Positions 8,562 through 19,502 of a DNA stretch of 19,502 bases are shown here, piece by piece (positions within the stretch are counted from its first letter, which is position 1; every line of letters starts with the position of its first letter). The translations under genes were made by a program, and so were the position numbers. Source of the DNA: Asaia bogorensis (GTDB taxonomy: Bacteria; Pseudomonadota; Alphaproteobacteria; Acetobacterales; Acetobacteraceae); NCBI GenBank assembly GCA_945871455.1, contig CAMBXJ010000019.1, forward strand, positions 1 through 19,502, written 5' to 3'. Under the pieces are notes generated by a model. It searched no databases, had not been told where the DNA came from, and saw only the letters and a program-made list of their open reading frames with translations.

Positions 8562-9287
8562 TCAGCGTCGGCGACGCAGCGCCAGGCCGAGCAGTCCGGC
8601 GCCGAGCAGGGCCAGGCTGGCGGGCTCTGGGGCGGCGAGCGCCTGGCTGAAGCGGATGTTGTCGATATAGGTGCCGTCGCCGGTGCCGGAGAAGCCGTCC
8701 GTGACCACCAGGGAGCCGATGTTGGCGGTGTCCGACGCGACGCCCAGGAACACCTGGTATCCGAGCTGGTAGGAGTTGGTCGGCAGGACGAAGGTGCCGA
8801 GCAGGGTGCCGGTGCCGTTGGCGCCGTCATAGGCCAGCAGCGTGGTCGGGTCGGTGCCGAAGGGGTTGAACTTGTCGCCGTAGAAGAAGCCGATCGCGTT
8901 CACCGGCGCATCGAAGGACAGCGTGATGGTGGACACGTCGCTCTGCGCCAGCATGCGCGAGACCGGCAGCGCGCCCTCACCGGTGGAGCAGGGGCAGGTC
9001 AAGGAGCCGAAGGGCACGGAGGAATAGTCGACGATGCCTAGGCTGCCGGTGGTTGTGACCGTGAGGCCCAGCGACGGCTCGTAGAACCCCGGCGCGAAGG
9101 CACCCAGCGGGGCGGTGGTGAAATCGGCCGCGGTGTTGATGCCCAGCCCCAGCACGCCGGTGACGTGCGCCGCCCAGTCGGCGGAATTGGCGGCGGGGTT
9201 GGACAGGAAGCCGGTGAGGGCCGCATGGGCCGGGGCGGCGACGAGGGTGGCAGCCAATACGGCGGCGGCCAGGGAAAGGATATGCAT
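8562..9287 (-). CDS. PEP-CTERM sorting domain protein
   Basis: This encodes a 241-residue exported surface protein. Residues 1-23 are a clean signal peptide ending APAHA-A. The body is rich in G, T, S and N, with beta-strand character and a CPCS pair at about 98-101. The C-terminus is the classic tripartite sorting signal: PEPAS at 220-224, a hydrophobic helix LALLGAGLLGLAL, and RRRR at the end. Such proteins are recognised and cleaved by an exosortase (EpsH/XrtA family) and usually accompany exopolysaccharide production; no exosortase gene is in the window. A GGAGAGA lies about 9 bases before the ATG. The specific role is unknown. The glycosyltransferase cluster 6 kb away fits the general association, but that link is inference. 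Confidence 0.9.
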   Translation of the reverse strand: MHILSLAAAVLAATLVAAPAHAALTGFLSNPAANSADWAAHVTGVLGLGINTAADFTTAPLGAFAPGFYEPSLGLTVTTTGSLGIVDYSSVPFGSLTCPCSTGEGALPVSRMLAQSDVSTITLSFDAPVNAIGFFYGDKFNPFGTDPTTLLAYDGANGTGTLLGTFVLPTNSYQLGYQVFLGVASDTANIGSLVVTDGFSGTGDGTYIDNIRFSQALAAPEPASLALLGAGLLGLALRRRR

Positions 9288-14923: not shown

Positions 14924-15892
14924 TCACCCAAGCAGGAACCACAGGCGGAACACCATGTCCTCGGGCCAGGATTGCCGGCGAAATCCCGGCAGCCGCAGGG
15001 CCGCCAGACGCGCATGGTACCCCCCGTTCAAGCCCTTTTCGATCACCGCAAGCTGCGCCCGGGATGCTTCTGTCAACAAATGAGGCTGCCGGTTCAGGGC
15101 CTCTATATGACTACGAACCAATGACATGAAAGGGCGCCGGCCGCGCCGAAACACGCCCACGCCGCGCTGCACCAGGCTGCCGGCGTTGCCGACCTGGTTG
15201 GTGCCATGCTGTCGATACAGCATCGTTTCCGCCGCATCGACCACCACCCGGCCACCCGCCGCGGTTACCAAAAGATAAGACCACCAATCGTGCCAGGTTT
15301 CATCAGGTGGCTGGCTGCCAGCGATCAGGTGCGCCGCCGCCCGATTGAGCATCACCGTGCAGCCCTGGGCAATGTTCTGTGTGATCGCGGCTGGGAAACT
15401 GGGAGGCCGGCGCACAACCGGCGAATGCCCCATCGGCCGCAAATTGTCGTCCACCAAAATATGGCCGGCACAATAAAGCCCCGGTATTCCGGACGGAATG
15501 TCAGACAGAGCCGCGACGCCGCGCGCCAGTTTCTCCGGCAACCAAATATCGTCCTGATCCGCGAACGCGAACATCGCGGCCTGGCTGGCAACCGACCCGC
15601 TGGCAACCGACCCGCTGGCAACCGATCGGCGCAGCAATGTCAGGAAACTGCCCGGCGCGTTCAGCCGCTCCCCCGACGGATGCCGCACGCAGCGCCCGCA
15701 TCCCGGCCCGTCCGAGAAACGGGTCACCAGCCCCACCGAATTGTCGGACGAACCGTCATCACGCCAGTGCAGCGACCAGTTCGTATGGGTTTGAGTCAGG
15801 AAGCTCTGAAGCTGCGTGTCCAGATAGGGCGCGCCGTTGTAAGTCGACAGCAGGATCGCAACCCGTGACGAGTCATCGGGCGCGTCGGTCAC
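14924..15892 (-). CDS. GT2 glycosyltransferase, rhamnosyltransferase-like
   Basis: This encodes a 322-residue cytoplasmic or membrane-associated GT-A fold enzyme. The first strand is VAILLSTYNG (11-20), the nucleotide-binding DDGSSD is at 45-50, and the DxD-type motif is FADQDDIWLP at 110-119. The acceptor-side HDWWSYLLV (201-209) and LYRQHGTNQVG (225-235) are the signature of a GT2 branch that includes O-antigen rhamnosyltransferases. A VASGS-VASGS-VAS repeat (91-103) sits just before the DxD strand. GGA lies about 9 bases before the ATG. It follows the tandem GT2 gene by 36 bases on the same strand, probably one operon. Its likely job is adding one sugar, perhaps rhamnose, to a lipid-linked glycan; sugar and acceptor are not proven. 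Confidence 0.92.
   Translation of the reverse strand: MTDAPDDSSRVAILLSTYNGAPYLDTQLQSFLTQTHTNWSLHWRDDGSSDNSVGLVTRFSDGPGCGRCVRHPSGERLNAPGSFLTLLRRSVASGSVASGSVASQAAMFAFADQDDIWLPEKLARGVAALSDIPSGIPGLYCAGHILVDDNLRPMGHSPVVRRPPSFPAAITQNIAQGCTVMLNRAAAHLIAGSQPPDETWHDWWSYLLVTAAGGRVVVDAAETMLYRQHGTNQVGNAGSLVQRGVGVFRRGRRPFMSLVRSHIEALNRQPHLLTEASRAQLAVIEKGLNGGYHARLAALRLPGFRRQSWPEDMVFRLWFLLG
15586..15627. repeat. 15-base in-frame minisatellite (2.8 copies) in a GT2 gene
   Basis: CTGGCAACCGACCCG occurs at 15586-15600 and 15601-15615, followed by a 12-base partial copy ending CCGAT at 15616-15627. On the coding strand it encodes VASGS repeats. Because the unit is a multiple of three, copy changes alter length without breaking the frame. 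The copies are identical, suggesting a recent expansion by slippage. Confidence 0.9.
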
Positions 15893-15928: not shown

Positions 15929-17878
15929 TCATCGTACCATGTTCAACGCACGCCGCGACACGGACGGCAGCAGATTGCGCATGACCAAAAGCACTTTCGC
16001 GATCGGCCTGATCCACAACAGCGGCAGCACCATCATGACCGGATAGCGCGATCGCCGGCGCAGGTACCGGGCGATGAAATGCAGGTGGCTCAAAGCCAGC
16101 TTTGTCTGCTCCGTGGTGCCGTAGGCCAGCGAGCGGCGATATTCGGCCATCATCTGCGCAAAAAAACGGGGCGCGATCAGGCTGCTCGCATAATACCGGA
16201 CCTCCCGTTTGTCGTCGGGAAACGCCGTCAGCAGCTTTCGCGCGTAGATCAGGCGGCTGGCCACCATACGCGGCGAATAGGACGTGCTGGTCGAATAGAT
16301 CCGCCATTTGGACAATGGCGTGTCGATATACACATTCTCATATCCCGCGCGAAACAGGCGCAGGAACAGGTCGTCGTCCTCATACCCGGACAGGGTTTCG
16401 TCGAAACCGCCGACCTCCTGGATCGCCTTCCGCGAAATCAGCGACGCCGACGGCAGAATGTACATATCCTCCCGCAGGCATTGCATCAGCGTGGTCTTGG
16501 GATGCGACGAGCCGGTCGCGCCGATGAAGGATTTCATCAGCATCGATCCATCCTGATCGATGCGATCCAGATTGCTGTAGGTCCAACCCAGCGCGGTCGG
16601 GCGGGTATCCGTGAAGGGTTCGACCAGAGTCTTCAGATGGTGAGGATACCAAATGTCATCCTGGTCGAGCAGCGCTATCAGGTCGCCATGCGCGTGCTTG
16701 ACCCCGGTGTTCCGCGCCGACGATTGGCCACCATTCGGTTTGCGCAGCAGGCGAATCGGGTGGGACCTGGCCATCTCCAGAACGATGTCGGCGCCGTCAT
16801 CGGTCGAGCCGTCATCCACGACGATGATCTCATCCGGCGGCAGGGTTTGACCCAGGATGCTTTCCAGAGCCTCTCGGATGAAGTCGCGTCCGTTATAGAG
16901 CGGGATGATCGCCGTGATCAGATACCGCCGCCGGCCAGGTTCGATGCTGTAATGGTCCGGCACGAATCCGCGCAGGAACTCCAGATCGGCGATGCAGGTA
17001 TCGATCAGCGCAGGATCGCTCGATCGCAGCGCGGAGCGCGCGTCGGTCATGGCTTGCCCGAGAAAGCGGGGCACGATCAGCCCGGTCGTATGGTACTGAT
17101 CGAACGCGGGACTGTCCGGAAACTGCCGCAGCAATTTCTCCGCATAAATCCGCCGACTCGCCGCCATGCTCGGCCTGTAGGAGGAACTGGTCGCGAAAAT
17201 CCGCCAGCAGGACAGGGCCATGTCGATATATTCGTTATCGTAGCCGTTTTGGAACAGCCGCAGGAACAGGTCGTCATCCTCGAACCCCGACAGTCTCTCA
17301 TCGAAACCGCCAATCGCGAGAAATGCGCGCCGATCGATCAGGGATGCCGACGGCAGGATGAACATATTCTCCGACAGGCAGTCGTCCAGCGACCGCTTCG
17401 GGTGCCGGGCTTCCCGGGTGGACAGAAAAGCACGGACCTGCATCCGCCCGTCCCGGTCGATCCGATCCAGGTTGCTGTACACCCAGCCCAGCGCCGTCGA
17501 TCGCGGCTGGCTGAAGGGCTGAACCAGCATCGACAGGTGGTTCGGATACCAAAGATCGTCGTGATCCAGGAACGCGATCAGATCGCCGGTCGCCTGTGCC
17601 ACGCCATGATTGCGTGCCGCGGACTGACCGCCGTTTGGCTTTTCAATCAGTCGGATCGGATGGGTCTGCGCCATGCGACGCACGATGTCGGGACCGCCAT
17701 CGGTGGAGCCATCGTCCACAACGATGATCTCATCGGCCGGCAGGCTTTGATTGAGCGCAGATTCGAGTGTCTGTTCGATGAACGCCGCGCCGTTGTAGAG
17801 CGGAATGACGGCCGAAATCGACAATGTCCGACGTCCCGCATCGGCATCGGCTTGCGCGGGAATCCTGGACTGGGTCAA
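15929..17878 (-). CDS. Tandem-domain GT2 glycosyltransferase from an internal duplication
   Basis: About 649 residues with two complete GT2 (GT-A) domains. Domain 1 (about 20-300) has ISAVIPLYNG at 21-30, VVDDGSTD at 53-60, PNGGQSAARN at 81-90, FLDHDDLWYP at 103-112 and GFEDDDLFLRLF at 198-209. Domain 2 (about 320-600) has the same motifs exactly 300 residues later (ITAIIPLYNG at 321-330, LLDQDDIWYP at 403-412, GYEDDDLFLRLF at 498-509). A basic hydrophobic tail at about 613-635 may attach it to the membrane. Both active sites look intact, so it may transfer two sugars, as in two-domain polysaccharide synthases. The frame opens further upstream, but that part translates a palindromic repeat. 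I used TTG 17878; TTG 17824 is an alternative and neither has a strong ribosome site. Confidence 0.9.
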   Translation of the reverse strand: MTQSRIPAQADADAGRRTLSISAVIPLYNGAAFIEQTLESALNQSLPADEIIVVDDGSTDGGPDIVRRMAQTHPIRLIEKPNGGQSAARNHGVAQATGDLIAFLDHDDLWYPNHLSMLVQPFSQPRSTALGWVYSNLDRIDRDGRMQVRAFLSTREARHPKRSLDDCLSENMFILPSASLIDRRAFLAIGGFDERLSGFEDDDLFLRLFQNGYDNEYIDMALSCWRIFATSSSYRPSMAASRRIYAEKLLRQFPDSPAFDQYHTTGLIVPRFLGQAMTDARSALRSSDPALIDTCIADLEFLRGFVPDHYSIEPGRRRYLITAIIPLYNGRDFIREALESILGQTLPPDEIIVVDDGSTDDGADIVLEMARSHPIRLLRKPNGGQSSARNTGVKHAHGDLIALLDQDDIWYPHHLKTLVEPFTDTRPTALGWTYSNLDRIDQDGSMLMKSFIGATGSSHPKTTLMQCLREDMYILPSASLISRKAIQEVGGFDETLSGYEDDDLFLRLFRAGYENVYIDTPLSKWRIYSTSTSYSPRMVASRLIYARKLLTAFPDDKREVRYYASSLIAPRFFAQMMAEYRRSLAYGTTEQTKLALSHLHFIARYLRRRSRYPVMMVLPLLWIRPIAKVLLVMRNLLPSVSRRALNMVR

Positions 17879-17928: not shown

Positions 17929-18022
17929 CCCCGTCATGGTGGGCGGAGGCCCGCCATCCACGACTTTCTCTCGACCGGCACAGCAAGTCATGGATGGCCG
18001 GCCTTCGCCGACCATGACGGGG
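17929..18022. repeat. 94-base palindromic dispersed repeat, copy 1
   Basis: It starts CCCCGTCATGGTGGGCGG and ends ACCATGACGGGG, nearly reverse complements. Inside, CCATCCACGACTT and AAGTCATGGATGG form a second inverted pair, so the unit folds as nested hairpins (a BIME/REP-like layout). Similarity to copy 2 continues about 10 bases past the end (AGGCCGGT). It lies just upstream of the tandem GT2 start. Confidence 0.85.
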
Positions 18023-18123
18023 ATAGGCCGGTCCGTCCCTCCAGCCGACTCGGTTGTTACCGAACAAACCGTTAGGTGACCTGCAACAACAACCGCATCA
18101 TTTGGGGTGGAGCACGGCGCTCT

Positions 18124-18217
18124 CCCCGTCATGGTGGGCGCCGGTCCACTATCCACGACTTCGCTGTGAGAAGCACCGCAAGACGTGGAGGGCGGGCCGT
18201 CGCCCGCCATGACGGGG
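18124..18217. repeat. 94-base palindromic dispersed repeat, copy 2
   Basis: It has the same length and orientation as copy 1, 195 bases away, and starts CCCCGTCATGGTGGGCG and ends GCCATGACGGGG. The ends and the CCACGACTT core are conserved, while the hairpin loops differ, with compensating changes that keep the arms paired. The two copies with the 101-base spacer fill most of the 403 bases between the methyltransferase and tandem GT2 genes, where no gene is seen. Confidence 0.85.
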
Positions 18218-18281
18218 AGAGGCCGGTGTTTCACACCCGGTATACCATTCATAGTTGCGTGCCGCCTGCGCAGAGCCCCGG

Positions 18282-19343
18282 TCATGTTGGGTAGGAGGTG
18301 GCTGCGATGTCGGCGACGATCACGTCCCAGGAGACCGTCGGTGCGTGCGTCTTTTTCACCCAGACGGCCGAGACCTCAAACCCCGCGGCGCGTTCCGCAT
18401 CTTGTTTGCCGGGGCTCCACACGAACGGGATAACGAACTGCTCACAATCGAGCATGCGCTCCACGATTTCGAACCCTGTGAACTTGTTGAAGATGCCGTC
18501 CCAGGCGGTGTCCGAAAACCGCCAGAAATCCCACGGGGCGTCATGCATGCCGATCGTCTGATGGGTCGCGATAAAGGCGACTCCACCCGTTTTCAGGACG
18601 CGGTTCATCTGTAGCGCGACCGCCCATGGCATCAACAGATGTTCGAACACGCTGACGGAATAGATCGCATCGAAGGTATCGTGCGGCAGCAACGTCGCCA
18701 TGTTGTGCGCGTCGCCCACCACATCGACATTCTCACTGGGCAGGATATCCAGAACGGTGGCCGCGTTCGGCTCAAAGCTGAGGCTGCGATCGAGCCCGCT
18801 TCTGTCCCGCCCACCGACATCGAGGATTTTCGCGTTCGGCAGGGTCTTGGTGTGCGCGATGAACCGCCGCTCGAAGTCGAAATAGCGGTATTGCGCCATG
18901 CGGGCCTGGCAAAGGTCGGCGACCCGCACCCGCTTCCAGCGGCCCAGCCTTGTGACAAAAACGATGTGGAGATCGTCGTCGATCGTCTCCGACTGGCGGA
19001 AGATCTGCATTCGGAACCCGAGATTGGGTCCAAGGTTAGCCACCCCCCCGTGCGGGAGGCCGACTTCCACGGCATAGGAGACGGTAGCGGCGTCGATCAC
19101 GAACATATCGGCCAGTTCATCTGCCGGATGATGGAACCAGCCGAACAGGTAGACGAAGCCGTGGAACTTCGCGGAGGCATCAGCGAGAAAACGGTAGCCT
19201 TGCGGGTTGCCGATTTCAGCGTCCGGGATTTCGGTGCCGAGCAAATAGCGTGCGCGGAGGTGGGCGCTGCGGATTTTACGAGCAACTGTCCCGGCGCTGT
19301 AGATTCGTTTTTGTGGTAATGGAGTAGCCACATTGGGCCTCAT
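18282..19343 (-). CDS. SAM-dependent methyltransferase with an unrecognised N-terminal domain
   Basis: This encodes 353 residues. The C-terminal half (about 165-335) is a class I methyltransferase: motif I is ILDVGGRDRSG at 173-183, an acidic residue after strand 2 is at VLDI (198-201), GDAHNMATLLPHDTFDAIYS at 210-229 is the Methyltransf_11 post-I/motif II area, and VFEHL is at 232-236. Residues 45-145 are strand-rich (FHGFVYLFGWFHHPADEL, then FVIDAATVSYAVEVGLP, then DLHIVFVTRLGRWKRVRV) and look like a beta-sandwich or carbohydrate-associated domain, which I cannot name. No clear ribosome site precedes the ATG at 19343. It is upstream of the glycosyltransferase genes on the same strand, 403 bases away across the repeats. 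A role in methylating a glycan is inference. Confidence 0.85.
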   Translation of the reverse strand: MRPNVATPLPQKRIYSAGTVARKIRSAHLRARYLLGTEIPDAEIGNPQGYRFLADASAKFHGFVYLFGWFHHPADELADMFVIDAATVSYAVEVGLPHGGVANLGPNLGFRMQIFRQSETIDDDLHIVFVTRLGRWKRVRVADLCQARMAQYRYFDFERRFIAHTKTLPNAKILDVGGRDRSGLDRSLSFEPNAATVLDILPSENVDVVGDAHNMATLLPHDTFDAIYSVSVFEHLLMPWAVALQMNRVLKTGGVAFIATHQTIGMHDAPWDFWRFSDTAWDGIFNKFTGFEIVERMLDCEQFVIPFVWSPGKQDAERAAGFEVSAVWVKKTHAPTVSWDVIVADIAATSYPT

Positions 19344-19405: not shown

Positions 19406-19437
19406 AATACGACCAACGCCGAGGCGTTGGTCGTATT
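19406..19437. terminator. Perfect 15-base hairpin, candidate terminator
   Basis: AATACGACCAACGCC and GGCGTTGGTCGTATT are exact reverse complements separated by two bases. A minus-strand frame open from the window edge ends in TAA at 19466-19464 (last codons NGRIVTNS), 27 bases before the hairpin, so it could be the terminator of a gene beyond the right edge. There is no real T-run on either strand, so an operator or small palindromic repeat is also possible. Confidence 0.4.
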
Positions 19438-19502
19438 TAGGCTTGGAGGCTAGACGAAGCGGTTTAGCTGTTCGTGACGATCCGGCCGTTCAACTGCGAC
19501 GC

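Follow-up and report, generated by a model that had tools for sequence, protein, structure and literature searches.

A tandemly duplicated GT2 glycosyltransferase gene of variable unit number beside a beta-solenoid protein gene in Asaia bogorensis

The two-unit GT2 gene and its neighbors

The window, meaning the whole stretch of DNA that was analyzed (19,502 nucleotides from Asaia bogorensis, GenBank assembly GCA_945871455.1), is one whole contig (CAMBXJ010000019.1) of a fragmented source genome with 520 contigs and a completeness of 85%. The gene under study lies on the minus strand at 15929..17878 and encodes a GT2 glycosyltransferase of 649 aa with a TTG start, as assigned from the open reading frame, self-comparison, Pfam, and an AlphaFold model. 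On the same strand, a SAM methyltransferase gene (F21; 18282..19343) is located directly upstream, and a second, more distant single-domain GT2 gene (F14; 14924..15892) is located downstream and kept in the relative G032; both were recognized using Pfam and locus comparison, and the methyltransferase also using its copy in G032. A terminator-like hairpin (19406..19437, minus strand) lies between the methyltransferase gene and the gene of a protein named F3 here, of which the window holds the last 12 codons and the stop codon (19464..19502, minus strand; ASQLNGRIVTNS followed by the stop), with the contig ending inside the gene. This end was compared with G032, where the C-terminal end of F3 is ASQLNGRIVTNG.

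The TTG start at 17878 is kept in G032 (the closest relative, 89% identical), where it lies 20 bp after the methyltransferase stop; the corresponding gap in the window is 404 bp and contains palindromic repeats (17929-18237), whose 94-bp core has 79 matches in the window's genome, both strands counted. The downstream F14 gene carries an in-frame 15-bp tandem repeat (VASGS, 15584-15625), and its G032 counterpart is 10 residues shorter at this repeat, i.e., two repeats fewer. A PEP-CTERM protein gene is found at 8562-9287.

The GT2 protein consists of two units followed by a C-terminal tail. Unit 1 (residues 21-300; 16979..17818, minus strand) has intact DDGSTD, LDHDD, and GFEDDD motifs, and unit 2 (residues 321-600; 16079..16918, minus strand) has intact DDGSTD, LDQDD, and GYEDDD motifs. 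The first-pass annotation had described a gap-free alignment of these two stretches at an offset of 300 with about 165 of 280 residues identical, about 69 of them in the first 100, and with the DDGSTD, DxD, and ED motifs kept in both halves; the self-comparison gave exactly 165/280 (58.9%) and 69, and the motif comparison agreed. Over the whole protein, 171 identities were counted at offset 300 (runner-up offset, 57). Identity declines from 69% in the nucleotide-binding part, through 62 of the 100 positions from 121 to 220, to 34/80 (42%) in the last 80 residues (positions 221-300). At the DNA level, the units are 64% identical over 280 codons (70/75/48% at codon positions 1/2/3), and a DNA repeat finder returned a 300-nt repeat family with a spacing of exactly 900. 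Pfam assigned two PF00535 stretches to the gene (E 6e-72; 241.4 bits against a cut-off of 23.3). The tail (residues 601-649; 15932..16078, minus strand) is predicted to be helical and is present as a single copy after the last unit, as judged from the self-comparison and the model; it does not match residues 301-349 (2/49 identical), and similar tails were seen by eye behind the last unit in the printed sequences of relatives.

The AlphaFold model of the 649-aa protein, built from 27 aligned sequences, has a mean pLDDT of 89. The structure prediction of both domains that had been suggested in the first pass showed helices and strands in the same order in the two halves, joined by a short linker without a coiled coil between them; the placement of one half relative to the other is uncertain (pTM 0.54). 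Motifs, model, and fold match agree on a GT-A fold with the DxD and the catalytic Asp present in both units, and the donor-side motifs of the two units are nearly the same. The best PDB match, both by sequence and by Foldseek, was chondroitin polymerase K4CP at 20-21% identity. The GT2 gene is a genuine duplication with an ordinary fold and an unusual architecture.

Unit number, history, and decay among relatives

Units were counted in the fetched frames of relatives with a profile made from the two window halves. A single 2736-aa frame of G008 contains nine units, G024 (1239 aa) has four, G004 and G029 have three each, and two units were found in the window, G032, G014, G015, G025, G013, and G002. 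In G010, G012, and G031, the contigs end within the array, and the counts of at least two units are lower bounds. Many other genomes have single-unit genes. In the window's genus, the gene at this locus has 1, 2, 3, 4, or 9 units. A second genus has five units in G244 (1682 aa) and two in G310 (718 aa). The search for one- and two-domain homologues that the first-pass annotation had proposed returned no fixed two-domain architecture, with 1-9 units at the same locus. Excluding G310, unit-to-unit spacing was exactly 300 residues in 20/29 cases and 295-304 in the remaining 9. An assembly artefact is thought unlikely for the nine-unit gene of G008, because it is one unbroken open frame in a 212-kb contig and the two adjacent unit pairs that were compared are 90.5% and 78.6% identical. 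In the five-unit gene (L038:3654-8699), units 3 and 4 are 94% identical.

In a survey of the family, the unit was found at E<=1e-50 in 29/397 genomes and 9/102 genera, and among the matches of this survey, frames with two or more units were in the two genera just named. A survey of 385 genomes of the class (E<=1e-55) returned no unit match outside the window's own genome. More distant one-unit relatives exist in Hyphomicrobiales; an Afipia protein (L049:4987-7008) has one GT2 unit behind an N-terminal part with a weak, sub-threshold resemblance to choline kinase (E 0.011). Distant two-domain GT2 frames from other phyla (L057:5115-6626, L059:5935-7434, L060:5803-7440, and L063:5812-7779) have domains about 240-270 residues apart and are of a different kind from the 300-residue unit. 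Among the matches listed in a search of the open-licence PMC literature, no earlier report of GT2 unit arrays was found, and their novelty in print is not firmly established.

In a tree of 75 units, the window's two units clustered with G004 units 2 and 3 and with the last unit of each of G014 and G031 (97/96), and the first units of G004, G014, and G031 formed a separate group (94/92). In nine other array genes, the last units formed one clade (100/99), and the first units of 7/9 of these genes fell into two clades (100/100 and 100/99), with those of G013 and G002 outside them and G002 on a long branch. The clades of last and first units suggest that the arrays of the nine-gene lineage are probably older than the species and that some later grew in the middle (G008 and G024). 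The units of G244 and G310 clustered together (95/86). Copy 1 of the window is probably not the orthologue of copy 1 of G014, judging by the tree, but AU tests did not reject the two alternatives tried (p 0.06 and 0.14). A recent duplication in the window lineage was disfavored rather than firmly excluded: a tree that united the two window units and the two G032 units in one clade was 19.5 log units worse, with a p-AU of 0.06.

In the comparison with G032, NG86 gave dN/dS values of 0.137 (copy 1) and 0.123 (copy 2) at a dS of about 0.47, and YN00 gave 0.123 and 0.074. The low values for each unit indicate that both are kept, in line with the earlier proposal that both halves are under selection. 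Unit integrity was scored by script for 74/78 units, four being incomplete. The DxD or the catalytic Asp was lost in 8/30 upstream units, 0/15 last units, and 0/29 one-unit proteins (Fisher p 0.0004 for upstream against last plus one-unit, and p 0.04 against last units alone, both uncorrected for kinship; two pairs among the 29 one-unit sequences each represent one sequence obtained twice, from different sources, and G008 and G024 have one broken-unit lineage in common). Units at the edges of G012:C430, G010:C104, and G031:C20 were counted as last units based on contig-end position and the tree. The first-pass annotation had named decay of the second copy in close homologues as evidence against two working sites. 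Decaying copies were found in seven other genomes, and they are upstream copies rather than last ones; neither the window nor G032 has any. The broken unit common to G008 and G024 is full length, keeps near-300 spacing, and has a dN/dS of 0.205, and given this constraint and its length, its role may be a non-catalytic one. Three pairs of copies inside G244 gave dN/dS values of 0.51-0.67, above the other pairs, which points to rapid divergence following a recent duplication.

F3 and the exchangeable slot

F3 proteins are mostly 440-670 aa, consist of 47-56% Gly+Ser+Thr+Asn (40% in one masked frame), and are nearly devoid of Cys, Lys, and Arg. A model built from 7 sequences is an all-beta solenoid (pTM 0.80). 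Matches to RTX-type proteins are weak, and an RTX relationship depends on these. F3 is presumably a secreted surface protein. In G029, a masked or N stretch splits F3 into two reading frames (L115:2658-5197). In the window's genome, a search with the F3 protein gave only weak matches and none at E<=1e-12, the last codons being at the contig end.

Apart from the window, 21/21 genomes of the genus that could be assessed have F3 no more than about 2.5 kb away from an unfused unit gene; G007, in which F3 and the unit gene are close to the ends of two contigs, was counted as not assessable. The locus is flanked on one side by transport and enoyl-CoA-hydratase-like genes and on the opposite side by SDR/HisD or branched-chain-transport-like genes (names partly assigned from sequence), and because these flanking genes are conserved too, the adjacency of F3 is weaker than it looks. 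The orientation of F3 relative to the unit gene varies among genomes, so that the two are often not one operon.

A methyltransferase gene was recognized beside the unit gene in 12/22 loci (21 genomes and the window), in two of which it is of the F28 kind and scores under the Pfam cut-off. One methyltransferase kind occurs as a fusion with a single unit in G005, G015, G017, G019, and G020, and another kind does so in L045; one kind located beside the unit gene clusters with the methyltransferase part of the fused proteins. No F3 was seen in the sequence fetched around the units with a fused methyltransferase in G005, G015, and G017, around the arrays of G244 and G310 (the other genus), or around G248 and G082; these absences are not firm because the same listing missed the F3 of G013. 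An F3-like frame is close to the fused unit of L043. The neighbors of the five-unit gene of G244 are transporter, dipeptidase, and PAP2 genes, with no recognized methyltransferase. In genus g101, a two-unit GT2 gene adjoins a methyltransferase-GT fusion and a flagellar/T3SS-type ATPase gene (L161:3201-9017).

Six genomes without a unit gene beside F3 have other genes in the same slot, the site being recognized by its flanks. G005, G020, and G021 have a GT4-like gene and an FkbM methyltransferase gene, and G006, G017, and G022 have a gene without a family match and a Methyltransf_23 gene (contents assigned in part by BLAST to Pfam-scanned ones). The putative transferase of this third cassette (G006, G017, and G022) had looked GT9-like by eye, but this identity was dropped as no profile, PDB, or plasmid match was found; no family scored above the cut-off, and a kdo-transferase hint was below it. 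Two features of a surface-protein island were found at this site: transferase and modifying genes lie beside F3, itself a presumed surface protein, and the transferase content is exchangeable at a fixed position (unit gene vs GT4-like cassette).

Elsewhere, F3 loci mostly lack such neighbors, and a role for F3 as a transferase partner everywhere was unsupported at the loci of its paralogues. In the first 20 fetched F3 loci (five at the conserved site, one too short, and 14 others), none had a match to the GT2 unit or to an array-type methyltransferase. The 28 neighbor proteins scanned at these 14 others included no glycosyltransferase or methyltransferase family in Pfam, with 5/28 having no family at all. 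A further 14 F3 loci, which were also compared with the slot genes by BLAST, had a GT2-profile frame in the fetched stretch in 3 cases. One F3 paralogue is separated by about 70 bp from a frame of 1059 aa whose C-terminal part is a GT2 domain (L217:306-4826), a possible second F3/transferase pair.

Proposed function and comparison with known systems

At a probability of roughly 45%, we read the GT2 gene as the transferase of an exchangeable surface-protein glycosylation cassette, with F3 or an F3-borne glycan as the likeliest target. The cassette would here consist of the two-unit GT2 gene, the SAM methyltransferase gene, and the second GT2 gene. Tandem duplication of the catalytic unit has placed two similar active sites in a single polypeptide, which has only one C-terminal tail. 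Given their nearly identical donor-side motifs, both sites most likely take the same donor sugar. Presumably acting in the cytosol, the transferase would add a sugar or short chain to the neighboring secreted-looking, Ser/Thr/Gly/Asn-rich F3, or to a glycan on it, and the methyltransferase would cap or decorate that sugar. Unit number has varied from 1 to 9 at this one site, with the last unit staying catalytic. It is possible, if somewhat doubtful, that the protein works as a comb of near-strict 300-residue units, up to nine per chain, whose number is tuned by tandem duplication, modifying many sites or building longer chains on F3, with dead units as spacers or binders.

The modules could also suit a same-donor polymerase with a methyl terminator, like ORF6-O7 or WbdA/WbdD, in which every unit would form a single linkage in a short surface polysaccharide and the methyltransferase would end its growth. 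The two GT2 units, which seem to share one type of donor, and a methyltransferase adjacent or, in relatives, fused, resemble a module set in the available text of PMC11231755; the top fold matches, K4CP and heparosan synthase, are polymerases; the Afipia relative has its kinase-like, sub-threshold N-terminal part; and F3 was not seen close to the fused units or the g101 arrays. However, the model shows a short linker and no coiled coil between the units, no polysaccharide exporter (Wzm/Wzt) was recognized among the locus frames read, part of which were profile-searched, and nine units, some broken, fit poorly with one unit per linkage. We regard this reading as unlikely. An alternating copolymerase of two different sugars, as in PmHAS and KfoC, which the first-pass annotation had raised in suggesting a bifunctional polymerase, is very improbable. 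One chain with two GT2 domains and K4CP as the best sequence and fold match speak for it, but that match is weak, the K4CP halves match the window protein unevenly (26.7 vs 67.0 bits), the window halves share 59% identity and have almost the same donor motifs, 8/30 upstream units are broken, and 1-9 units at the same locus replace a fixed two-domain architecture. What survives of that proposal is that both halves are intact and constrained; the alternation of two sugars is not supported.

The pattern of decay, with breakage in upstream units and in no last unit or one-unit protein (8/30 vs 0/15 and 0/29), would also be expected if the last unit alone did the chemistry and the upstream units were drifting by-products of duplication or acceptor-binding spacers; the full-length broken unit of G008 and G024, constrained at 0.205 and near-300 in spacing, suggests that some dead units are kept. 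In the window lineage, however, both units retain their DxD and base residues and are under similar constraint, and 22/30 upstream units are intact, which makes this explanation quite improbable. Under the preferred reading, a glycosylation cassette acting on F3, the locus is a candidate protein-glycosylation locus in Acetobacteraceae, in which F3 stays while transferase and methyltransferase swap. The natural series of 1, 2, 3, 4, 5, and 9 units would allow a direct test of the effect of GT domain repetition on rate, processivity, chain length, and number of sites, and we consider this copy-number series and the exchangeable cassette to be more interesting facts than the claim of an alternating polymerase.

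K4CP/KfoC of E. coli K4 (2z86, 2z87) resembles the window protein in having two GT2 GT-A domains per chain; the two proteins are about 20% identical, and their alignment as a pair leaves an rmsd above 20 A. K4CP presumably uses two donors, given the UDP-GlcUA and UDP-GalNAc complexes in the structure titles, whereas the window family has halves that are 59% identical and a unit number of 1-9. Autotransporter glycosyltransferases of the TibC/Aah type offer a parallel for a dedicated transferase next to a beta-solenoid surface protein, although they belong to a different GT family; a glycosylated TibA fragment was far down the F3 fold list and not significant (E 0.33).

Three further systems were compared using the parts of their descriptions that were available. 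ORF6 of Klebsiella pneumoniae O7 combines a methyltransferase-kinase, a coiled coil, and two dTDP-rhamnose GT2 modules (PMC11231755). It is similar to the window in having two GT2 modules and a methyltransferase in the system, its modules using one donor (dTDP-Rha), as the window units probably do, and differs in its coiled-coil ruler, kinase domain, and exporter locus, none of which was recognized at the window locus. The addition of two rhamnoses is attributed to the GT2 flagellin enzyme of Clostridium difficile type B, and a role in methylating them has been proposed for it (PMC5207246); like the window cassette, it combines PF00535 with a methyltransferase domain, and it adjoins its protein substrate, as the cassette may do, but phylum and substrate differ, and a unit array is not mentioned in the text available. 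In the flagellin islands of Enterobacteriaceae, variable GT and FkbM/AdoMet methyltransferase genes are inserted beside flagellin (PMC4875605). The substrate there is flagellin, and tandem-unit amplification is not mentioned in the portion consulted; as described, these islands are like the F3 slot in carrying variable glycosyltransferase and methyltransferase content next to the gene of a surface protein, which F3 presumably is.
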